Below, in pieces: positions 23,613 through 34,930 of a stretch of DNA of 55,683 nt. Below the pieces are notes generated by a model that saw only the letters and a list, made by a program, of their open reading frames with translations, did no database searches and was not told where the DNA came from. Source of the DNA: Acidovorax sp. (GTDB taxonomy: Bacteria; Pseudomonadota; Gammaproteobacteria; Burkholderiales; Burkholderiaceae_C); assembly GCF_027492855.1 (NCBI RefSeq), contig NZ_JAPUDY010000079.1, positions 1 through 55,683 on the forward strand. Reading direction: 5' to 3'. Both the position numbers and the translations under genes were made by a program. The first letter of the stretch is position 1. Each line of letters begins with the position of its first letter.

Positions 23613-23896
23613 TGGCAGCTCCTCTGGGAGTGTAGACGCGTTCCTAAAGGGGCTTGAGGGAGCTTCAACCCGTGTCTTCCACGGGTTGGCATGCATTCGC
23701 TCGCCGACCTTCGTTTGCGTGCGCTGGGGGCGCAAACACGCCCAATTCCAAGCCCGACCTCATTCCACTCGCTGCCACTAAGGGCGCAGTCTTTGCCAGC
23801 GCACCGGCTTGGCACCCGTTCACTTTCTCGCAGCCCACCGTGCAAGTGCAGATCCGACCGTTCGGGATTTCCCTGTAGTACGTATTGGTAAGCCGC
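23613..23896. other. Non-coding interval between the AraC gene and the FadR cassette
   Basis: About 280 bp without a convincing gene. It holds a nine-base-pair hairpin (CAACCCGTG-TCTTC-CACGGGTTG, 23666-23688) without a T run, which may end the AraC transcript, and the promoter region of the first FadR gene. This is the left junction of the cassette; I found no target-site duplication. Confidence 0.6.
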
Positions 23897-23907
23897 TGGT
23901 AAAACCA
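23897..23907 (+). promoter_or_regulatory. Putative FadR-type operator, left copy
   Basis: TGGT-AAA-ACCA, an 11-bp dyad ending five bases before the regulator ATG. FadR-subfamily GntR regulators commonly bind TGGTnnnACCA-like sites, so autoregulation is likely. A second half-related sequence, TTGGTAAGCC, lies just upstream (23885-23894). Confidence 0.55.
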
Positions 23908-24622
23908 CGGTATGACAACAAAGAACAAGGCCCCCAGCGTGACGCGGCCCGCCTCAGAAGCACCGGTATCGGGCTTCGAGAAGGTGTTCGGCTTCCTGCG
24001 CGAGCAATTGCTCGATCGCCGGATCCGCAATGGCGATCGCCTGCTGCCCGAGCGTGAACTTGCCGAGCAGCTGGGTGTGAGCCGCCCGATCGTTCGCGAG
24101 GCCTTGCGGGCACTGTCGATGTTGGGGGTTGTGGAGATCCGCGAGCGCCTGGGCACGGTGGTGCGCCAGCCCGATATCTCGGTGCTGGGCGATGTCTTCG
24201 CTTTCTCGCTGGCGCAGACCGGCGATGCCATCGATGACGTCATGCAGGCGCGCGTCGCGCTGGAGTGCCAGGCGATCCGCCTGGCCTGTCAGCGGGCCAC
24301 CAATGCAGACATCGATCGGCTCCGGGCCGCCCTGGATCTCATCGAGGCCACGGTGGACGACACCGCCAATGGTGGCTTGGCCGATTTCGACTTTCACTAC
24401 GCCCTCGTGCGTGCCAGCAAGTCAGACACCATCGTGCAGATGTATGGGGCGATAGCAACGCTGCTGACGCGCTCGCACAAGGACCGCCGCAGGATCGTGG
24501 GGGACCACGACGAGTCGATGAAGCGTGCGGTGGTGGAGGACCATCGCCGTCTGCTGCAGGCCGTTGTTACGGGTGACGAGGACGCTGCAGACCAGGCATT
24601 GCGTGCCCATTTCAAGATCGGA
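23903..24622 (+). repeat. 720-bp inverted repeat, left arm
   Basis: Compared base by base with 30054-30773 on the opposite strand: 718 of 720 match, the first 680 (23903-24582) perfectly. The arm covers nearly all of the first FadR gene. Outside the arm both the promoter side and the last codons are similar but clearly diverged. Confidence 0.95.
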
Positions 24623-24700
24623 AACGAGTTTCGGCGGCAGAAGGCACTGGCCCCCAGCGTCAGGCCGCCCACCACCAACGGAAAGGAAATGACATCGTGA
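23912..24700 (+). CDS. FadR-subfamily GntR transcriptional regulator, left copy
   Basis: 262 residues. Winged HTH at about 20-90 ('PERELAEQLGVSRPIVREAL', then 'RLGTVVRQPD' wing), FCD ligand/metal domain from about 100 ('FDFHYALVRASKS' and later His-containing helices). FCD regulators usually respond to small organic acids or sugar acids and repress the neighbouring operon. The stop overlaps the GTG start of the reductase gene (GTGA), so the regulator heads the catabolic operon. A near-identical second copy of equal length lies at 29976-30764 facing it; they differ only in the last ~20 residues and two earlier bases. Confidence 0.93.
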   Translation: MTTKNKAPSVTRPASEAPVSGFEKVFGFLREQLLDRRIRNGDRLLPERELAEQLGVSRPIVREALRALSMLGVVEIRERLGTVVRQPDISVLGDVFAFSLAQTGDAIDDVMQARVALECQAIRLACQRATNADIDRLRAALDLIEATVDDTANGGLADFDFHYALVRASKSDTIVQMYGAIATLLTRSHKDRRRIVGDHDESMKRAVVEDHRRLLQAVVTGDEDAADQALRAHFKIGNEFRRQKALAPSVRPPTTNGKEMTS

Positions 24701-25599
24701 GCGAACACAGTCAAAACGGCCAGGTCGGTTTTATCGGCGTTGGCACCATGGGCCGTGAAATGGCCCGCAACCTTGCACAAAAGGGCTACCAAGTCACCGC
24801 CTACGACGTGCATCCAGAAGCGGTGCAGCCGCTTGCGCAGTTCGGTGTGCATGCGGCTGGCACGGTGGCGGAGGCCGCTGCCGGGGCGGATGTGGTCATC
24901 ACCATGCTGCCCGATACGCCCGACGTCGAGGCCGTCATCTACGGTGAAGGCGGCCTGCTCGCGAACCCGCCGCAGGGCCGCCTGATCATCGACATGAGCA
25001 CCATCGCGCCGGGTGCCGTTCGCCGCATGCATGCCGACTGCGCGAAGCAGGGGGTGGCCTTCATTGACGGGCCGGTGTCGGGTGGGCCGGGCGGTGCGAA
25101 GAACGGCACGCTTTCGATCATGGCTGGCGGCGATGCAGAGGCCTTTGAGCGGGCCACGCCTTTCTTCGCCGCCATGGGCACGACGATCACCCACGTTGGC
25201 ACCAGCGGTGCAGGCCAGACCGTGAAGCTGTGCAACCAGCTGATTTGTGGCATCAACATCCAGGCGATCTGCGAAGCCATCGCCCTTGGCCGTGCCAATG
25301 GTGTCGATCTTCACCAGTTGCGCAACGTGCTGCAGGGGGGCTCGGCGGCGTCGTGGATGCTGGACAAGCTCGGCACCGCCATGATCACCGGTGATGCAGC
25401 CGCAGGTTTCCGCATCGATCTGATGCTCAAGGACCTGCGTCTCGTCGCGCAGCAGGCGCAAGAAAGCAATGTGCCGCTGCCTGCCACGGCATTGGTCACC
25501 ACCCAGTACATCGATGCGCGCGCTCATGGCGAAGGAAGCAATGGCAACCATGCGCTGTTCCGCGTCTATGACCGCATGACGGGGCAGGGCCGCAAATGA
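24697..25599 (+). CDS. NAD(P)-dependent beta-hydroxyacid dehydrogenase (HIBADH family)
   Basis: 300 residues, GTG start coupled to the regulator stop. Rossmann motif 'GFIGVGTMGREMARNL' (11-26), substrate loop 'DGPVSGGPGGAKNGTLSIM' (125-142) and catalytic Lys177 in 'KLCNQLICG'. The family includes tartronate-semialdehyde reductase, 3-hydroxyisobutyrate and L-threonate dehydrogenases, all acting on short hydroxyacids. Its stop overlaps the next ATG. Together with the RpiB-like isomerase and kinase it suggests catabolism of a sugar acid or polyol; the exact substrate is unknown. Confidence 0.92.
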   Translation: MSEHSQNGQVGFIGVGTMGREMARNLAQKGYQVTAYDVHPEAVQPLAQFGVHAAGTVAEAAAGADVVITMLPDTPDVEAVIYGEGGLLANPPQGRLIIDMSTIAPGAVRRMHADCAKQGVAFIDGPVSGGPGGAKNGTLSIMAGGDAEAFERATPFFAAMGTTITHVGTSGAGQTVKLCNQLICGINIQAICEAIALGRANGVDLHQLRNVLQGGSAASWMLDKLGTAMITGDAAAGFRIDLMLKDLRLVAQQAQESNVPLPATALVTTQYIDARAHGEGSNGNHALFRVYDRMTGQGRK

Positions 25600-26273
25600 C
25601 GCTCGACTTCGACGTGGTGCTTGCGCGCTGGCCGATGTTCCTCGACGGCGCGCTCATGACACTGCGCTTGTCGGTCGGTGCCACAGCGCTTGGCTTCGTC
25701 ATCGGCGCGCTCTGTGCCGTGGCCCGCCGCAGCGAGCAGGGCTGGGCCCGCAAGGCGAGCACGGCGTATGTCGAACTGGTCCGCAACACGCCGTTGTTGG
25801 TGCAGATCTTCATCGTGTACTTCGGCATGGCCAGCGCTGGCATGAAGTTCTCGGCCACCACCGTGGCGCTGACGGCCCTGACGATCAATGTCGGTGCCTA
25901 CACCACCGAGATCATGCGAGCAGGGTTCGACTCTATCCACAAGGGCCAGATCGAAGCTGCTGAATGCCTCGCACTGGGTCGACGCCAGGTGTACTGGCAT
26001 GTGGTGCTGCTGCCAGCGCTCGAGCGTGTGTACCCGGCGCTGACGAGCCAGTTCGTTCTGCTGATGCTGGCCTCTTCCGTCTGCTCGCAGATCTCGGCGG
26101 AAGAGTTGACGGCCGTGGCGAACTTCGTGCAGTCGGATACCTACAGGCCCTTTGAGACATACATCTTCGTGGGCGCCGTGTACGTGCTTTTGTCGATGTT
26201 GATGCGTGCAGGTTTTTGGGGTCTGGGCCTTTTTCTGTTCCCCCGGCGCCGTCGGCTGGGAACTGCGCTGTGA
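25596..26273 (+). CDS. Amino-acid-type ABC transporter permease 1
   Basis: 225 residues, five or so membrane segments. HisMQ-family features: 'MTLRLSVGATALGFVIGAL' N-terminal block, 'VELVRNTPLLVQIFIVYFG', and the coupling motif 'AAECLALGRRQVYWHVVLLP'. It overlaps the reductase gene by four bases and pairs with permease 2. PAAT-family importers carry amino acids and related polar acids, so a sugar acid or amino sugar derivative is conceivable here. Confidence 0.93.
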   Translation: MTLDFDVVLARWPMFLDGALMTLRLSVGATALGFVIGALCAVARRSEQGWARKASTAYVELVRNTPLLVQIFIVYFGMASAGMKFSATTVALTALTINVGAYTTEIMRAGFDSIHKGQIEAAECLALGRRQVYWHVVLLPALERVYPALTSQFVLLMLASSVCSQISAEELTAVANFVQSDTYRPFETYIFVGAVYVLLSMLMRAGFWGLGLFLFPRRRRLGTAL

Positions 26274-26280
26274 GGCCGCC

Positions 26281-26979
26281 ATGGAAACCGCACTGAACGC
26301 CAACCATCTGCAATTTCTTCTGCACGGCGCTGCCTGGACCGTTGGGTTGTCACTGATCGCCTTTGCGGGGGGCGGCCTGTTCGGGCTGGCTGTCGCACTG
26401 TGCCGTGTTGCACGCTCTAGGGCGGTGCGAATCGCCAGCGCAGGCTATGTGCAGCTTGTGCAGGGAACCCCGCTGCTCGTCATCCTCTTCATGACGTTCT
26501 TCGGCCTGCCGTCGCTCGGATTGAAGATATCGCCCCTGGCTGCCGCAGGGATCTCGCTGACGATCTACGTCTCCGCCTACCTGGGCGAGATCTGGCGCGG
26601 CTGCATCGAGTCGGTTCCGCGTTCGCAGTGGGAGGCGGCCGAGTGCCTGGCCCTCACGCGCATTCAGCGCATGCGGCTCGTGATTCTTCCGCAGGCCGTG
26701 CGCATCGCAACGCCGCCCACGGTGGGCTTCATGGTTCAGATCGTGAAGAACACTTCGTTGGCGTCCGTGGTCGGTTTTGTCGAACTGGCGCGCTCCGGGC
26801 AAATCATCAACAACTCCGTGTTCGAGCCGTTCCTCGTCTTTGTGATCATCGGAGTCATCTATTTCGCGCTGTGCTACCCGCTCTCGCAGTGGAGCCAGCG
26901 GCTGGAGCGCCGCAGCGCGCGGACGAGGGGCCCTGCTGTCTTGGCCGCAGAGCAACCATCAATCGCGTCACCCGCGTGA
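26281..26979 (+). CDS. Amino-acid-type ABC transporter permease 2
   Basis: 232 residues from the ATG at 26281, seven bases after permease 1; an in-frame upstream extension inside permease 1 is rejected. HisMQ features: 'YVQLVQGTPLLVILFMTFFG' and 'AAECLALTRIQRMRLVILPQ'. It would form a heterodimeric pore with permease 1. Confidence 0.93.
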   Translation: METALNANHLQFLLHGAAWTVGLSLIAFAGGGLFGLAVALCRVARSRAVRIASAGYVQLVQGTPLLVILFMTFFGLPSLGLKISPLAAAGISLTIYVSAYLGEIWRGCIESVPRSQWEAAECLALTRIQRMRLVILPQAVRIATPPTVGFMVQIVKNTSLASVVGFVELARSGQIINNSVFEPFLVFVIIGVIYFALCYPLSQWSQRLERRSARTRGPAVLAAEQPSIASPA

Positions 26980-26990
26980 GGAGTTTTTCC

Positions 26991-27725
26991 ATGGAACAAG
27001 CAACCGCTGTCGTTCTGCGCAACGTACACAAGAGCTTTGGCCATCACAAGGTGCTGGCCGGGGTCGATCTGGAGGCAAAACGTGGTGAGGTCACGGCCCT
27101 GATCGGCCGCAGTGGGTCTGGCAAGAGCACGGCGCTGCGCTGCATCGACCGCCTGGAGCAGGTCGATAGTGGCGAGATCACAGTGTGCGGGCGCCGGGTC
27201 GATGACCCGAATGTGGACCTCAAGGCCTTGCGACTCGACGTGGGTATCGTCTTCCAGAGCTACAACCTCTTTCCCCACCTCTCCATCGAAGAGAACATCA
27301 TGCTGGCGCCCCGCGTGGCCAAGGGCCTGAAAAGAGGCGAAGCCCGCGAGCTTGCGCACACGGTGCTGGCGCGCGTGGGCCTGTCGGACAAGGCGCAGGC
27401 ATATCCGGAGCAACTCTCCGGAGGCCAGCAGCAACGGGTGGCCATTGCACGATCGCTGGCGATGCAACCCAAGGTGATGCTGTTCGACGAAGTCACTTCC
27501 GCGCTGGACCCGGAGCTGACGGGCGAAGTCCTCAAGGTGATCGAAGAGCTGGCTGCCGGTGGAATGACCATGGTGATGGTGACGCACGAAATGGCGTTCG
27601 CCCGGCGCGTGGCCCATCAAGTGGTCTTCATGCACGACGGTCGCGTGCATGAGCGCGGTAGCGCCGACATCCTCACCCATCCCAGCACCCCTGAGCTCAA
27701 GCAGTTCGTGCAGAGCGACTTCTAG
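26991..27725 (+). CDS. Amino-acid-type ABC transporter ATPase
   Basis: 244 residues. Walker A 'GRSGSGKST' (Arg where most relatives have Pro or Ala), Q-loop 'VFQSYNLFPH', signature '[15 protein letters not shown]', Walker B 'VMLFDEVTSALDPE' (Val in place of the usual Pro), switch His in 'VTHEMAFA'. GlnQ/HisP class. The ATG at 26991 follows GAGG. Partner of the two permeases upstream. Confidence 0.94.
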   Translation: MEQATAVVLRNVHKSFGHHKVLAGVDLEAKRGEVTALIGRSGSGKSTALRCIDRLEQVDSGEITVCGRRVDDPNVDLKALRLDVGIVFQSYNLFPHLSIEENIMLAPRVAKGLKRGEARELAHTVLARVGLSDKAQAYPEQLSGGQQQRVAIARSLAMQPKVMLFDEVTSALDPELTGEVLKVIEELAAGGMTMVMVTHEMAFARRVAHQVVFMHDGRVHERGSADILTHPSTPELKQFVQSDF

Positions 27726-27769
27726 GCACTTGTTTTTCATCCCCCATCACCAACCCAAAGGAGACAACC

Positions 27770-28561
27770 ATGTCCATGATCCGCACCGCCCTTGTGGCGA
27801 CTGGCCTCGCCGTTGCTGCGCTGTCTGCCCACGCAGATTTGCTCGACGACATTCTGAAAGCCAAAAAAATCCGCATCGCCACCGATATGGCGGTTCCGCC
27901 GGCCGCCATGATGGATTCGAGCATGCAGCCCACGGGCTCTGACGTGGAGACCGCCAAGCTGCTGGCGCAGGATTGGGGCATGCAGATCGAGTGGGTGCCG
28001 ACCACGGGTGCAACGCGGATTCCCAACGTCAACACCGGCAAGGCCGACATCATCATCTCCACGTTGTCCGTCACGCCTGACCGCGCCAAGGTGATCGATT
28101 TTTCGAAGCCCTATGCAGTCCTGCAATCCGTCTTTGGTGCGCGCCAGGATCTGGCGATCAAGGACTGGCCTGACCTGAAAGGCCGTAGCGTGACGGTGAC
28201 CCGTGGCACCACGCAGGACACAAAACTGAGCGCCATGGCGGCCGAGAAAGACTTCAAGGTCGTGCGCTATGACGATGACGCCACGATGGTGACTGCGGGT
28301 GCCACGGGCCAGGCCGAGATCGTTGCCACCTCTGTGGCGCTGGTGAACCAGATCTCCGCGAAGAACCCGCAAAAGCCCTGGGAGCCGAAGTTCGTGATCC
28401 AGAATTTCGATCTGGCCATCGGCATCAAGCAAGGCGAGCCTCGCCTGTTGGCCAAGCTCAACGAGTGGATCGCAGCCAACATCAAAAACGGCAAGCTGAA
28501 CGCCATCTACAAGAAGTTCTACAACGTGGACCTCCCTGCTTCCATGCAACAACAGCCATGA
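27770..28561 (+). CDS. Periplasmic binding protein, amino-acid family 3
   Basis: 263 residues. Signal peptide 1-22 with cleavage after 'LSAHA'. SBP family 3 fold: 'KIRIATDMAVPPAAMMDS', 'KADIIISTLSVTPDRAKVIDFSKPY', 'TVTRGTTQDTKL'. Ligand-contact positions usually filled by an aromatic ('PPFGF' type) read 'PPAAMM' here, so the ligand may differ from standard amino acids. SD AAAGGAG precedes the ATG. Located after the ATPase gene, before the isomerase. Confidence 0.93.
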   Translation: MSMIRTALVATGLAVAALSAHADLLDDILKAKKIRIATDMAVPPAAMMDSSMQPTGSDVETAKLLAQDWGMQIEWVPTTGATRIPNVNTGKADIIISTLSVTPDRAKVIDFSKPYAVLQSVFGARQDLAIKDWPDLKGRSVTVTRGTTQDTKLSAMAAEKDFKVVRYDDDATMVTAGATGQAEIVATSVALVNQISAKNPQKPWEPKFVIQNFDLAIGIKQGEPRLLAKLNEWIAANIKNGKLNAIYKKFYNVDLPASMQQQP

Positions 28562-28593
28562 CTTCTTCTACAACCATCAGGAATGAAAGACAC

Positions 28594-29043
28594 ATGAAAA
28601 TAGTTATCGGATCGGACCACGCTGGCTGGGCCCTCAAGGCCGACGTGATGGCCCACATCAAGCAACTGGGCCACGACGTGGTCGACGTGGGCAGCCACGG
28701 GCCGGCGCCAGTGGATTTTCCTGACATCGCGCGCGCCCTCACGCAAAAGGTTCTGGCGGGTGAAGCCGAGCGGGGCGTCATGGTCTGCGGCACAGGCGTT
28801 GGTGCCGCGATCGCCGCGAACAAGGTGCGCGGCATTCGGGCCGCCGTGTGCCATGACGTTCACTCGGCACACCAGAGCGTCGAGCACGACGATGTCAACG
28901 TGATGTGCATTGGCGCGCAGATCGTCGGCCCCTGGCTGGCCAACGACCTGGTGGCGTCATTTCTTTCTGCGCAGTTTGAAGACAGCGAGGACTACCGTCG
29001 CCGGGTCGATAAGCTGCACCAGATGGACGCGGCATTCAAGTGA
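28594..29043 (+). CDS. rpiB: RpiB/LacAB-family sugar isomerase
   Basis: 149 residues from the ATG at 28594. All RpiB active-site residues are visible: 'GSDHAG' with Asp8/His9, Cys65 and Thr67 in 'VCGTGVG', His98 in 'SVEHDDVNV', and Arg residues near 136-138. The family interconverts aldo- and keto-sugar phosphates (ribose-5-P, allose-6-P, tetrose-phosphates). Its stop overlaps the kinase GTG start. In this setting it probably acts on a phosphorylated catabolic intermediate, not on housekeeping ribose-5-P. Confidence 0.92.
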   Translation: MKIVIGSDHAGWALKADVMAHIKQLGHDVVDVGSHGPAPVDFPDIARALTQKVLAGEAERGVMVCGTGVGAAIAANKVRGIRAAVCHDVHSAHQSVEHDDVNVMCIGAQIVGPWLANDLVASFLSAQFEDSEDYRRRVDKLHQMDAAFK

Positions 29044-29963
29044 CAAGCCCCACCGTTGTCGTCTTCGGTAGCCTCAACATGGACCTGGTGGTCCGTGTCG
29101 AGCGCGCACCCCATGCCGGGGAGACGGTCGCGGCCGAGTCGTTCTTGATGAATCCAGGGGGCAAGGGGGCGAATCAGGCCGTGGCCTGTGCGCGCCAGGC
29201 CGCGCGTGTGGTGATGGCCGGTCGTGTCGGCGACGATGACTTCGGGGTGGCCCTGAAGAGTGCGCTCCAAAGGCAAGGCGTGGATGCCTCCTCGGTCCAG
29301 GTTGGCTCGGGAAGCAGTGGAATCGCGATGATCACGGTGGACGATGCGGCGCAAAACCGCATTGCCGTCGTGGGCGGGGCGAACGCTGAAGTCTCTGAAG
29401 CCGATGCTGACGGTTTGCGCACTCCACTGCGCGAAGCGGGCCTGCTGCTGCTGCAATTGGAGATACCGCTGCCAGCAGTCATTCGCGCAGCCCAGGTCGC
29501 TCGCTCGCTGGGCTGCACTGTGCTGTTGAACCCTGCACCGGCGCGGATGCTGCCGCCCGAGCTTCTGGCGCTGGTCGATATTCTGGTTGTGAACGAAACC
29601 GAAGCCCAGGTACTGACGGGCCTGAACAACGTGGACGCTTCAAACGCCGCGGAAGCCGCCGCGCTGCTGACCAGGCGTGGGCCTCGGGATGTCATCGTTA
29701 CGCTGGGCGAACACGGCGTGGTTTGGCATGGCCCGCTCGGAACCCGAAGCGTGCCCGCTGTTCCTGTGCGTGCCGTGGACACCACTGCTGCAGGCGACAC
29801 CTTCATTGGTGCGCTTGCCGCGCTGCGGGTTGAAGGGCGGAGCATGGACGAAGCCCTTGCCCATGCGGTGAAGGCGGCAACGTTATGCGTTACACGACAC
29901 GGCGCTCAGGCCTCGATCCCGTCACGCGCTGAGGTGGAAGCGTTCGAGGCGGGAGTGTGTTGA
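29040..29963 (+). CDS. Ribokinase-family sugar kinase (PfkB superfamily)
   Basis: 307 residues, GTG start in GTGA overlap with the isomerase. Ribokinase hallmarks: 'VFGSLNMDLVV' at the N-terminus, 'NPGGKGANQAVACARQ' (PfkB signature 1), 'VVNETEAQVLTG', and 'VDTTAAGDTFIGALAA' (PfkB signature 2 with the catalytic Asp). It phosphorylates a pentose or related sugar. Last gene of the operon; it ends 12 bp from the convergent second FadR gene. Ribose itself is doubtful because the transporter is not of the sugar type. Confidence 0.92.
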   Translation: MTSPTVVVFGSLNMDLVVRVERAPHAGETVAAESFLMNPGGKGANQAVACARQAARVVMAGRVGDDDFGVALKSALQRQGVDASSVQVGSGSSGIAMITVDDAAQNRIAVVGGANAEVSEADADGLRTPLREAGLLLLQLEIPLPAVIRAAQVARSLGCTVLLNPAPARMLPPELLALVDILVVNETEAQVLTGLNNVDASNAAEAAALLTRRGPRDVIVTLGEHGVVWHGPLGTRSVPAVPVRAVDTTAAGDTFIGALAALRVEGRSMDEALAHAVKAATLCVTRHGAQASIPSRAEVEAFEAGVC

Positions 29964-29975
29964 TCGCCTTTGCTT

Positions 29976-30764
29976 TCAGAGAGGATCTTTCTCTGACCTG
30001 CCGAGAATGGCTTTGCCACTGGGAGCCAGCGCTTTCTGTCGGCGCAGGTTGTCTCCGATCTTGAAATGGGCACGCAATGCCTGGTCAGCAGCATCCTCGT
30101 CACCCGTAACAACGGCCTGCAGCAGACGGCGATGGTCCTCCACCACCGCACGCTTCATCGACTCGTCGTGGTCCCCCACGATCCTGCGGCGGTCCTTGTG
30201 CGAGCGCGTCAGCAGCGTTGCTATCGCCCCATACATCTGCACGATGGTGTCTGACTTGCTGGCACGCACGAGGGCGTAGTGAAAGTCGAAATCGGCCAAG
30301 CCACCATTGGCGGTGTCGTCCACCGTGGCCTCGATGAGATCCAGGGCGGCCCGGAGCCGATCGATGTCTGCATTGGTGGCCCGCTGACAGGCCAGGCGGA
30401 TCGCCTGGCACTCCAGCGCGACGCGCGCCTGCATGACGTCATCGATGGCATCGCCGGTCTGCGCCAGCGAGAAAGCGAAGACATCGCCCAGCACCGAGAT
30501 ATCGGGCTGGCGCACCACCGTGCCCAGGCGCTCGCGGATCTCCACAACCCCCAACATCGACAGTGCCCGCAAGGCCTCGCGAACGATCGGGCGGCTCACA
30601 CCCAGCTGCTCGGCAAGTTCACGCTCGGGCAGCAGGCGATCGCCATTGCGGATCCGGCGATCGAGCAATTGCTCGCGCAGGAAGCCGAACACCTTCTCGA
30701 AGCCCGATACCGGTGCTTCTGAGGCGGGCCGCGTCACGCTGGGGGCCTTGTTCTTTGTTGTCAT
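29976..30764 (-). CDS. FadR-subfamily GntR transcriptional regulator, right copy
   Basis: 262 residues from the ATG at 30762-30764, the same start and length as the left copy; a longer upstream frame is rejected on that ground. HTH and FCD domains are identical to the left copy through about residue 236. The C-terminus ends 'RRQKALAPSGKAILG..' in place of 'RRQKALAPSVRPPTT..'. It is monocistronic and convergent with the kinase. Both copies appear intact, so the proteins could form mixed dimers. Confidence 0.93.
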   Translation of the reverse strand: MTTKNKAPSVTRPASEAPVSGFEKVFGFLREQLLDRRIRNGDRLLPERELAEQLGVSRPIVREALRALSMLGVVEIRERLGTVVRQPDISVLGDVFAFSLAQTGDAIDDVMQARVALECQAIRLACQRATNADIDRLRAALDLIEATVDDTANGGLADFDFHYALVRASKSDTIVQMYGAIATLLTRSHKDRRRIVGDHDESMKRAVVEDHRRLLQAVVTGDEDAADQALRAHFKIGDNLRRQKALAPSGKAILGRSEKDPL

Positions 30765-30773
30765 ACCGTGGTT
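30054..30773 (-). repeat. 720-bp inverted repeat, right arm
   Basis: Reverse-complement partner of 23903-24622. Mismatches fall at 30093 and 30087 only, judged by reading the two copies side by side. The arms enclose 24623-30053, about 5.4 kb. Confidence 0.95.
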
Positions 30774-30780
30774 GTTCCAG

Positions 30781-30790
30781 TGGCTAGCCA
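30781..30790 (-). promoter_or_regulatory. Putative FadR-type operator, right copy
   Basis: TGGCTAGCCA, a perfect 10-bp palindrome, lies 17 bases upstream of the right regulator ATG. The matching stretch of the left copy reads TGGTAAGCCG. Conversely, the left TGGTAAAACCA is TGGAACAACCA here, so the stronger dyad is at a different place in each copy. Confidence 0.45.
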
Positions 30791-31100
30791 AATACCATGT
30801 TAACCCCCGGCTAACGGCGCGGCCTCTGCAGAGCGGGGCCGTTCTGAGGAATTTGCCAGCGGGGCCGTGGCAAACATCTTTGTTGCCCGCGCAAACACAG
30901 GCCGTGGAGCTGCGTGGAATCATCGAACCCACGCCGGATGCTATCTATCGGCACGTCGGGTCACGAAATTCCTGCTCTTATCCCGCTGAGTGCGGCCGTT
31001 TTCTGGGCCTCTGTGGGTGTTGTTGATGGAATCGCACTCATTCTTGTTTGCAATTCGATGATCCGGATCCTCTCTATCTCAATTTTGTTCCAGGACCGTT
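30791..31100. other. Non-coding interval before the TonB receptor gene
   Basis: About 310 bp without a convincing gene, the right junction of the FadR cassette. Near its end, TCATTC/TTTGCAATTCG around 31035-31060 is a weak Fur-like sequence (about 10 of 19 consensus matches), a possible but unproven iron control site for the receptor. No transposase remnant or direct repeat was recognised. Confidence 0.5.
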
Positions 31101-33272
31101 ATGCATACTCGCCGCCCTTCCCGGAGTGCCTCACCGGCACATCCTTTTGCCCTGCGCCAGATCGCCCAAGCCTGCGCGTGGACCTTGCTGGCCGGTGCCG
31201 GTGCGGCCCTGGCGCAAAGCCCAGCTGCCACCGTGGCTCTCAAGGAGGTGACGGTCAACGCATCCGCTGAAACACCCGAAAGCCTGCCCGCCGCAGCGCC
31301 CGGTGGCCAGGTGGCCAAGGGCACGCGCCTGGGCGTGCTGGGCAATGTGGGCGTGATGGACACGCCCTTCAACATCACGGGTTACACCGCCGAGGGCATT
31401 GCCGACCAGCAGGCACAGACGGTGGGCGCGGTGCTCAAGAACGACCCTTCGGTGCGCACGACGACCAACGAAGGTCACATTGTTGAAAACTTCACCATCC
31501 GTGGCTTTGGTGTACTGGCCGGTTCGATGGCCATCAATGGCGTCTATGGCTTGGCGCCCGAGCAGAACACTCCCACCGAGATTTTCGAGCGCGTGGAAGT
31601 GCTCAAGGGGCCTGGCGCCATGATGATGGGCATGCCGGCCACGGGGGATGTGGGTGGCGCCATCAACCTCGTGCCCAAGCGCGCGGGCAAGGATCCGCTG
31701 ACGCGCGTGACCACCACCTATTCGTCCAAGTCGAATGTGGGCGTGCACGCCGATGTGGCGCGCCGGTTCGGCGAGGACAAGCGCCTGGGTGTGCGCGTCA
31801 ACGGCGTGGTGTCGGGCGGCGAGACCTGGCTCGACCATCAGACCAAGGCACGCGAGATTGGCCACCTGGCGCTCGATTACCAAGGCGAGGGCTGGAGCAT
31901 GGAGGCCGATGCCTATTCGCTCAAGAACAAGGTGCGCAAGGGCTCACCCATGCAGCCGATCATCACCGGCTGGACCACGGTGCCCAAGGCGCCCGATGGC
32001 TCCACCAATTTCTTCTATGGTGAAGGCGTGTACAGCAACACGCAGACGCAGGGTCTCATCGTGCGTGGCCAGGCCAAGATCAACGCGGGCTGGACGGCTT
32101 TTGCTTCCGCAGGCAAGGCCCAGCATGGCTATGACGGCTTTATTTTTGGCACCCGCCCGGTGTGGACGGCAGCCAATGCGGCCACCGGCAATGCCACGGG
32201 AACGGCCTACAACTCCTGGGGCGAGTACGACACCACCACGGCTGAGTTGGGTCTGCGCGGCCAGTTCAGCACCGGCGCCGTGGCGCACAAGCTCACCCTG
32301 GCCGCCAACTTGATGAACTACGAAGGCGGCGGCCGTGGCAACGGCACTGCGCCCATCCGCAGCAATATCTACAACCCCACGCCGATCACCATGCCTGCAG
32401 GGGCAGCTGCATCCACCTTCACCAAGTACAACGACGATGTGATGACGGCCCTGAGCGTGGCTGATACCTTGTCCTTTGCCGATGACAAGGTGCAGCTCAC
32501 CCTGGGCCTGCGTGCACAGCAGGTAGAGCAAAAACTCAGCAAGTACAAGGAGAGCGCCGTGACGCCTTTGGTGGGCGCCGTGTTCAAGCCCTGGGGCGAG
32601 AACGTTTCGCTGTACGGCAATTACGTGGAAGGCTTGAGCGCGGGCACTACCGTGAAGGCACCCTATGCCAATGAGGGCGAGACCTTCAAGCCCTACAAGA
32701 GCAAGCAGATGGAGGTGGGCGTGAAGTGGGTGAGCGGCAGCCTGACGCAGACCGTGAGCCTGTTCCAGATCAGCAAGCCCGCCCTCATCGAGGCCAACAA
32801 TCGCCAGGTGCTCGATGGCGAACAGCGTAACCGGGGTGTGGAGTGGAACGTATTCGGCCAATTGAACCCGGCCCTCACACTGCTGGGCGGTGTGGCCTAC
32901 ACAGAGGCGGATCAGACCAAGACCAACAAGGGTGTGAACCAAGGCCGTGCGCAGTTCGGCGTGCCCAAGCTCACGCTGAACCTGGGCGCGGACTGGGCCA
33001 TCCCTGGCGTGCAAGGCCTGTCGGTGAACGGCCGTGTCAACCACACGGGATCGCAGTGGCTCACAGGCGACAACAGCGTGAAGCTGCCGTCGTGGACCAC
33101 CGTGGATGTGGGCGCCCGCTACGCCACGCGCTTTGGCGCCCAGCCAGTGGTGCTGCGCGCCACGGTGACCAACCTCGCCAACCGCGCGTACTTTGAAAGT
33201 ATCTGGGGCGCGGGCCGGGTGAACGTGGGCGCTCCACGCGCCGTGCGCCTGTCGGCCACGTTCGACTTCTGA
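31101..33272 (+). CDS. TonB-dependent siderophore receptor
   Basis: 723 residues. Signal peptide to about residue 39 ('AGAALAQ'), a TonB-box-like 'KEVTVNAS', plug domain with 'NFTIRGFGV', 'IFERVEVLKGPGAMMMG' and 'VGGAINLVPKRA', then a 22-strand-type barrel ending in Phe ('RLSATFDF'). Plug motifs are those of FhuA/FpvA-type ferric-siderophore receptors. No extra N-terminal signalling domain. SD AGGA precedes the ATG. The stop overlaps the esterase start (TGATG). Probably feeds the ABC importer at 18-22 kb. Confidence 0.94.
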   Translation: MHTRRPSRSASPAHPFALRQIAQACAWTLLAGAGAALAQSPAATVALKEVTVNASAETPESLPAAAPGGQVAKGTRLGVLGNVGVMDTPFNITGYTAEGIADQQAQTVGAVLKNDPSVRTTTNEGHIVENFTIRGFGVLAGSMAINGVYGLAPEQNTPTEIFERVEVLKGPGAMMMGMPATGDVGGAINLVPKRAGKDPLTRVTTTYSSKSNVGVHADVARRFGEDKRLGVRVNGVVSGGETWLDHQTKAREIGHLALDYQGEGWSMEADAYSLKNKVRKGSPMQPIITGWTTVPKAPDGSTNFFYGEGVYSNTQTQGLIVRGQAKINAGWTAFASAGKAQHGYDGFIFGTRPVWTAANAATGNATGTAYNSWGEYDTTTAELGLRGQFSTGAVAHKLTLAANLMNYEGGGRGNGTAPIRSNIYNPTPITMPAGAAASTFTKYNDDVMTALSVADTLSFADDKVQLTLGLRAQQVEQKLSKYKESAVTPLVGAVFKPWGENVSLYGNYVEGLSAGTTVKAPYANEGETFKPYKSKQMEVGVKWVSGSLTQTVSLFQISKPALIEANNRQVLDGEQRNRGVEWNVFGQLNPALTLLGGVAYTEADQTKTNKGVNQGRAQFGVPKLTLNLGADWAIPGVQGLSVNGRVNHTGSQWLTGDNSVKLPSWTTVDVGARYATRFGAQPVVLRATVTNLANRAYFESIWGAGRVNVGAPRAVRLSATFDF

Positions 33273-34930
33273 TGCACAGCGGCACCGGGCGCTGGATGGC
33301 GGGAAAGAAGGGCTGGCTATCGAAGGGAGCTGCGTGTGTCCTGGTGGGCGCGCTGGTCCTGACGATGAAGGCGCATGCCGCCACCGACACACCACCCGGT
33401 GGGCCGCTTGCCATGGGCGGTGTGGCTGAGGGGGTGCTTGCGCGGATGACAGCCCGTGCCCATCCACTGGACGCACAGCCGGGCGACCTGGTGCGTGGCA
33501 GCCTGGGTGGGGACCGCATGCGCCTGGTTTTGGTCAACGCAGCGGGCCAGCGTGAGCGTGTGCTGGCCACCGGGGTCGGTAACCCGCAGGACTTTGTCTT
33601 TGTGGCGGGCGCCAATCCGCCGTATGCGCTGGAGGTGCGCGCTCCCGTGGAGGGCGGCTACAGCCTGCGCGTGAGTGAGGTAGTGCCCCGTGCGGCCCAG
33701 GTGCCGCCGCCCCATGTCTTGGAAAGCCTCCGTTTGCGGGCCTTGCAACAGGCGCTGGTCAGTGGAGGAGCGGACACCGAAGCGTTTTGGACTGAGATGC
33801 GTGAGCGTGGCACCCCGCTGGTGGAGCCGGACGCCCACCCAGCGCCAGATGGCTCGGTGCTGGTTACCTTCTTGTGGCGTGGCGCGCAGCGCAACGCCTG
33901 GGTGTTCGGCGCGCCTTCAGGCAACCATGATGCAATGGCCCGGTTGGAGGGCAGCGATGTTTGGTACCGCAGCTACCGTGTACCCCCCGATACCCGGCTG
34001 GGCTACAAGCTGGCCCCCGACGTGCCGGAGCTCAATGCCCCTGCACCGGTGCGCCGCCGCGCCATCGTCGCCACGGCGCAGCGTGATCCGCTCAACGCCC
34101 GCAGTTTTCCCGCTCGGCCGATCGACATATTCGCAGGCGAATCTGTGCTGGAACTGCCGCAAGCCCCGGCGCAGGAATGGGTGGCGGCCCGAGAGGGCGT
34201 CGCGCAAGGGGTAGTGGCCCGACACAGGGTTTCCAGCACGGTGCTTGGCAATACGCGGAACGTCACGCTGTATCGGCCGGTTGGATGGCAGCCGGACGCG
34301 GCAGGTAACGCCCTTTTGGTGGTGTTCGATGGCGATGCCTACCAAAACGAGATCCCGACGCCGACCATTCTGGACAACCTGATCGCGGCTGGCGAATTGC
34401 CGCCCACGGCGGCCATCCTGATCAGTAACCCCAGCCGCAAGGCGCGCAACGAGGAACTACCGCCCAACCCCGCGTTCATGCGGTTTTTGGCGACGGAGCT
34501 CATGCCCTGGGCACGAAGCCAGGGAGTGGCTGCCGACGCAGACCGCACGGTGGTGGCGGGTGCCAGCTATGGCGGGCTGGCTGCGGCTTATGCAGGGCTG
34601 CAGCATCCCGAGTGGTTTGGCAACGTCTATAGCCAGTCGGGCTCCTTTTGGTGGAGTGCCGAGGGGCAGGAGCCCTCGTGGCTCACGCGCGAATTCGTGC
34701 GGCAGCCGTTGCGGCCGGTGCGCTTTTATCTGGAGGCCGGTTTGTTTGAAGGCAACCGGGCAGAGCAGGTGGGAATTCTCGAATCCACGCGCCACCTGCG
34801 CGACGTGCTGCGAGCCAAAGGCTATGCGGTGCATCACCGCGAATATGCTGCCGGGCACGACTACCTGCACTGGCGCGGCACCTTGGCCACGGGACTCATG
34901 GCCTTGCTCGGGAAGACGGCCACCAGATAG
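33272..34930 (+). CDS. Exported Fes-type enterochelin/siderophore esterase (PfeE-like)
   Basis: 552 residues, larger than E. coli Fes (~400). A signal peptide ends near 'MKAHA' (residue ~36), then a PPC-like beta domain ('PLDAQPGDLVRGSL', ~60-130), the Fes N-terminal Ig-like domain ('VLVTFLWRGAQRNAWVFG', ~190-290) and the esterase domain with Ser432 in 'GASYGG' and His529 in 'AAGHDYLHW'. The export signal suggests periplasmic hydrolysis of the ferric siderophore, as known for Pseudomonas PfeE. Translationally coupled to the receptor gene. Confidence 0.9.
   Translation: MHSGTGRWMAGKKGWLSKGAACVLVGALVLTMKAHAATDTPPGGPLAMGGVAEGVLARMTARAHPLDAQPGDLVRGSLGGDRMRLVLVNAAGQRERVLATGVGNPQDFVFVAGANPPYALEVRAPVEGGYSLRVSEVVPRAAQVPPPHVLESLRLRALQQALVSGGADTEAFWTEMRERGTPLVEPDAHPAPDGSVLVTFLWRGAQRNAWVFGAPSGNHDAMARLEGSDVWYRSYRVPPDTRLGYKLAPDVPELNAPAPVRRRAIVATAQRDPLNARSFPARPIDIFAGESVLELPQAPAQEWVAAREGVAQGVVARHRVSSTVLGNTRNVTLYRPVGWQPDAAGNALLVVFDGDAYQNEIPTPTILDNLIAAGELPPTAAILISNPSRKARNEELPPNPAFMRFLATELMPWARSQGVAADADRTVVAGASYGGLAAAYAGLQHPEWFGNVYSQSGSFWWSAEGQEPSWLTREFVRQPLRPVRFYLEAGLFEGNRAEQVGILESTRHLRDVLRAKGYAVHHREYAAGHDYLHWRGTLATGLMALLGKTATR

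Follow-up and report, generated by a model that had tools for sequence, protein, structure and literature searches.

An inverted pair of FadR-type regulator genes around a probably acquired operon in Acidovorax sp., with a core apparently homogenised by gene conversion

The described systems closest to the locus reported here are invertons and the inverted tuf genes of Salmonella. Invertons rely on short repeats and a site-specific invertase, usually encoded nearby. The tuf genes lie far apart, are near-identical throughout and need high dosage. In the passages of the two studies cited here, gene conversion occurs between the inverted Salmonella tuf genes, and the segment between them can also become inverted (PMC5485169, PMC8262849); inversion accompanied almost half of the events that were selected at one site in the first study (PMC5485169), and up to a quarter in the second (PMC8262849). 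With test cassettes in Salmonella, the second study found 5 inversions among 59 isolates, and repair took place at a mean of 2.6e-6 events per cell and generation (PMC8262849).

The window, i.e., the whole stretch of DNA analysed here, is a 55,683-nucleotide contig of an Acidovorax sp. genome, in which two FadR-subfamily genes in opposite orientation enclose an operon that, by its gene content, is of the transport and metabolism type. Regulators of this subfamily join an N-terminal GntR helix-turn-helix to a C-terminal FCD domain, and members of the family act as repressors of the operon, staying bound to an operator until they are released by an effector that is often a carboxylic acid. Both copies carry the GntR (PF00392) and FCD (PF07729) domains above gathering scores. 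The features of the locus are as follows:

23613-30858, no strand: extra ~7.25 kb compared with relatives in the genus, an insert whose left edge lies no earlier than the AraC stop and whose right edge falls roughly at 30846-30860
23886-23907, plus: predicted operator for the left FadR gene (TGGT, 7 nt, TGGT-AAA-ACCA), conserved in operon loci and the window's only match
23903-24622, plus: left arm of the inverted repeat (near-identical tract, 718/720 against the right arm)
23912-24700, plus: left FadR-subfamily GntR regulator, putative ancestral operon head (Pfam GntR, FCD; same position and operator in relatives)
24697-25599, plus: 3-hydroxyisobutyrate / tartronate-semialdehyde reductase-like dehydrogenase (Pfam NAD_binding_2, NAD_binding_11; below every NCBIfam equivalog cut-off)
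25596-26273, plus: ABC transporter permease 1 (Pfam BPD_transp_1)
26281-26979, plus: ABC transporter permease 2 (Pfam BPD_transp_1)
26991-27725, plus: ABC transporter ATPase (Pfam ABC_tran)
27770-28561, plus: substrate-binding protein, family 3 (Pfam SBP_bac_3)
28594-29043, plus: RpiB-type sugar-phosphate isomerase (Pfam LacAB_rpiB; NCBIfam rpiB TIGR01120 above cut-off)
29040-29963, plus: ribokinase-type kinase, the operon's last gene (Pfam PfkB; NCBIfam TIGR02152 above cut-off)
29976-30764, minus: right FadR-subfamily regulator, the left copy's protein to residue 237 with another tail (Pfam, base comparison)
30054-30773, minus: right arm of the inverted repeat (base comparison with the left arm)
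30769-30790, minus: counterpart of the operator at the right copy, its TGGT boxes changed to TGGC and TGGA and its ACCA kept (base comparison)

An earlier note on this DNA described the two genes as the arms of a possible invertible promoter switch, and its measurements were reproduced: an ungapped comparison of 23903-24622 with the reverse complement of 30054-30773 gave 718 identical bases of 720, the first 680 of them consecutive (23903-24582) and the only mismatches at 24583 and 24589. With a repeat finder the arms reach 778 nt at 98% and are separated by 5351 nt. As that note also had it, the left gene heads the operon by overlap, the next start codon (GTG) lying at 24697, and the right gene, read from 30764 down to 29976 on the minus strand, terminates at a distance of 12 bp from the end of the kinase gene (29963). 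Both reading frames are open and their products identical over residues 1-237, with different tails. Within the same genome assembly no further close FadR copy was found, the third DNA match being 57 bp at 77%. A crossover between the arms would invert ~5.4 kb, bringing the operon behind the upstream region of the right copy without breaking a gene, since both hybrid regulator frames would stay open; the proposed geometry is thus sound, but its use as a switch is not borne out by the comparisons below.

The operon-end side of the right copy was also considered. Operon transcripts running past 29963 would include antisense to the regulator, and some 720 nt of them could base-pair with the 5' part of the same transcript. 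A terminator scan found none on the plus strand across 29963-31126, but its 6 hits in the region do not exceed chance expectation (5.2), and two of three relatives scanned likewise showed none behind the operon, the third (L151) having one. Folding at the junction was no better than in shuffles (z -0.41).

The regulators and operon sit in an insert flanked by an AraC-type gene on the left and a TonB-receptor gene on the right. Eleven of the 46 other genomes in the genus hold strong matches to both flanking genes, adjacent and on one contig, and all 11 have an empty site, with matched edges -3 to 220 bp apart as against 7246 bp here; in six the empty-site sequence was read directly (L107, L108, L111, L112, L114, L117), and in five the site was read from match coordinates alone (L109, L110, L113, L115, L116). 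A further same-genus genome (G030) gave only a partial left-flank match on a short contig. At E <= 1e-80 the operon dehydrogenase was found in 0/46 of the other genomes of the genus. Given this absence from same-genus genomes the operon looks acquired, probably horizontally and from another species. The ~240 bp from the AraC stop to the conserved part upstream of FadR (23613-23852) showed no resemblance to the relatives' intergenic sequence or to the operon loci of the sister genus.

The longest direct repeats between the insert edge regions are two 10-mers in opposite order, near chance by our estimate. A 10-mer, TTTGCCAGCG, is common to 23792-23801 and 30852-30861, the right one at the approximate insert edge, and this pair, near chance level as estimated, could be a target-site duplication. 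A composite transposon was considered and rejected, as no transposase occurs among the scanned insert genes and the arms do not lie at the insert edges. Beside the insert, 31101-34930 encodes a TonB-dependent siderophore receptor (above its NCBIfam cut-off) and then a gene with enterochelin-esterase domains, which probably form a siderophore uptake and release unit.

The closest operons occur in six species of a sister genus in the same family, with FadR 76-81% identical; five have the complete operon in the same order, and in the sixth the contig ends inside it. At E <= 1e-50, 14 of 60 sister-genus genomes matched, the eight beyond the closest six at 47-50%. Wider samples, with only six or seven best candidates scored per genome, yielded one match in 398 other genomes of the family (E <= 1e-60), one in 398 others of the order and none in 368 others of the class (both at E <= 1e-50). 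An occurrence search in the 60 nearest genomes, the source genome included, gave a best match outside that genome of 33% identity. A scan of named genomes returned 66 loci, 46 of them (53-61% identity) with at least part of the operon and by title from Ancylobacter, Bradyrhizobium, Microvirga, Bosea, Alsobacter and kin. A DNA comparison of the region with plasmids matched 2107 records, of which none covers >80% of the region at a single place and the best three reach 68.8-70.5% identity; regulator-protein matches in 1862 plasmid records all fall below 60% identity, and the three records inspected have one regulator each.

Altogether 79 loci were examined, of which 54 have all seven core genes, 5 are partial and 20 lack such an operon. 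A single FadR copy (counted at no less than 40% identity over 150 residues) is present in each of the 54 full and 5 partial loci. The sequence in view behind the last matched gene amounts to 761 bp or more in one full locus (L151) and to 1381 bp or more in each of the remaining 53, long enough that a second copy placed as here would be at least partly in view. Gene order is the same in 43 of the 54 full loci; ten lack a kinase match and in one RpiB has moved. The operons of Ancylobacter, Bradyrhizobium, Microvirga, Bosea and the sister-genus six thus have the same genes and the same kind of operator as here, but a single regulator at the head, whereas here a second FadR stands inverted behind the last gene. 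Among the papers listed by literature searches, none was seen to describe such a paired-regulator arrangement.

Two side observations concern these loci. Three sister-genus loci (L136, L158, L159) hold a second operon type with RpiB, FadR, a kinase and a transporter, lacking a dehydrogenase match and the TGGTNNNACCA motif before FadR. At 13141-14036 of L152, the kinase match is split into two pieces (63% and 68%), perhaps by a frameshift or sequencing error.

Operators of the FadR subfamily are described, in the cited part of one source, as TKGT/ACMA boxes in which 3 nt separate GT from AC, and an extra half-site frequently lies 7-12 nt away (PMC4494728). The left copy has such a site, the predicted operator TGGTAAAACCA with a further TGGT 7 nt before it (TGGT at 23886-23889 and 23897-23900, ACCA at 23904-23907), and all of its boxes are kept; at the same positions the right copy reads TGGC and TGGAACAACCA and so lacks both TGGT boxes. 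Upstream of FadR, TGGTNNNACCA occurs in 55 of the 59 operon loci, preceded 11-12 nt earlier by an extra TGGT in 50 of the 59; the four without TGGTNNNACCA are the three sister-genus loci of other gene order and L082, whose sequence starts immediately ahead of the gene. Compared with the six relatives over the 18 operator-side bases, the left copy shows 1-2 differences and the right copy 5-6. The extended operator has one exact match in the genome, at the left copy; allowing one mismatch gave 11 matches vs 41 in a backward-read control, and so has little meaning. A promoter scan found none for either FadR copy. The earlier note had placed promoters and operators just outside the arms, which is correct for the two TGGT boxes but not for the ACCA box, which lies inside the left arm.

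Since the left copy retains an intact operator, whereas that of the right copy is damaged, the left copy appears to be the ancestral, autoregulated operon head and the printed orientation of the interior the ancestral one, the orientation itself resting on a draft assembly. The left FadR protein would bind the predicted operator at 23886-23907 and repress the operon until released by its effector. The right copy, if expressed, would yield the same protein to residue 237, made without feedback, and is probably outside the autoregulatory loop.

The sequence just outside the arms is informative about their history. Beyond 24622 the copies remain alike, and in frame, for 35 bases with 10 differences, and before 23903 for 18 bases with 5 differences, as against 2/720 inside; a sharply bounded near-identical tract thus lies between homologous but diverged flanks, which are short, and because the tract borders were chosen from the data, Fisher values for inside vs outside are inflated. 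Over the 35-base end, the two copies differ from each other at 10 positions, roughly the extent to which either differs from the six relatives (left 5-9, right 5-10). Because these ends are homologous yet diverged, gene conversion better explains the identity of the arms.

Taken together, these results favour, as the probable account, an inverted pair of FadR-type genes around an acquired operon whose core was homogenised by recent gene conversion, with inversion incidental. The two genes would be old paralogues or separately acquired orthologues, the right one probably an older, separate FadR-type gene and not a fresh duplicate. Homologous recombination, which we infer to be RecA-dependent, would recently have copied the core of one FadR over the other, in either direction, leaving 720 near-identical bases between diverged ends, and recombination between the arms would keep the cores alike. 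Inversion of the interior would be a rare by-product that places the operon behind the damaged operator. An unconverted right copy was not seen in the genomes compared.

Some of the pattern could stem from the assembly, a draft of 110 contigs of which the window is one whole contig. Short reads have difficulty spanning inverted copies that are identical over 680 bp, and they leave both orientations open; a read anchored in the flank of an arm supports the end of that arm but perhaps not its middle. Two less similar real copies could therefore have been collapsed mid-arm, or the interior orientation could be arbitrary. We consider such a partial artefact unlikely, since both outer junctions agree with the flanking gene order in the 11 relatives, and the two differences, the distinct tails and the distinct upstream regions were kept apart by the assembly. 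In a check of the assembly by 16S genes, none was found here, nor in the relative G015 (one contig), G013 or G010, and 4 of 8 genomes gave a match.

If most of the FadR gene had recently been duplicated in inverted orientation, with the differing ends made at the event or soon after, this would account for the high identity of the arms and for the occurrence of two copies only in this genome among those compared. However, the ends, although different, keep a FadR-like sequence and the reading frame, and the relatives side with both copies in turn: all six agree with the right copy at 24623, and all six with the left at 24626 and 24643. A fresh duplication would give identity or unrelated sequence at the ends, not 10 differences in 35 bases, and the observed pattern fits older copies with an overwritten core; we therefore regard recent duplication as quite improbable.

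An invertible regulatory switch, in which recombination between the arms flips the operon between FadR-controlled and FadR-insensitive upstream regions and selection keeps the arms identical, is permitted by the geometry, the unbroken genes, the unequal operators and the recent recombination that the arm identity implies, but we judge it very unlikely, as two arms occur in 0/54 full loci elsewhere, the operon as printed stands in the apparent ancestral orientation behind the operator conserved in relatives, no flipped genome was seen among those compared, and no recombinase is encoded among the scanned insert genes. Pfam scans found no recombinase in the nine insert genes and the AraC-type neighbour, nor in 10 further window ORFs, four of which had no match of any kind. 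We give equally little credence to a recombinase-free two-state version, in which homologous recombination would slowly move the operon between a repressor-bound operator and one no longer bound, while conversion keeps the arms alike.

In this small natural system, two regulator genes that recombination appears to have homogenised surround the operon predicted to be under their control, and inversion frequency, conversion and regulation are measurable together. Inversion, if it occurs in cells, would take the operon away from its intact operator. More generally, finding a long and almost identical inverted repeat in a draft assembly does not by itself imply a switch, and comparing the sequence just outside the arms can separate conversion from fresh duplication.

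Like the invertible promoters, or invertons, that are the subject of PMC8748976, PMC11892184 and other papers, this locus has inverted repeats whose recombination would alter operon expression; unlike theirs, its arms consist of 720 bp of coding sequence and enclose the operon itself, and the scanned insert genes include no invertase. The likeness to tufA and tufB, as far as the cited passages describe them, lies in the presence on one chromosome of two almost identical, oppositely oriented genes, in their homogenisation by recombination, probable in the present case, and in possible inversion. Here, in contrast, a regulator pair surrounds its own operon, 5.4 kb apart and with diverged ends, and the recombination is deduced from sequence comparison. 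The arrangement is thus best read as another case of a known process, in which inverted homologous genes are kept alike by conversion.
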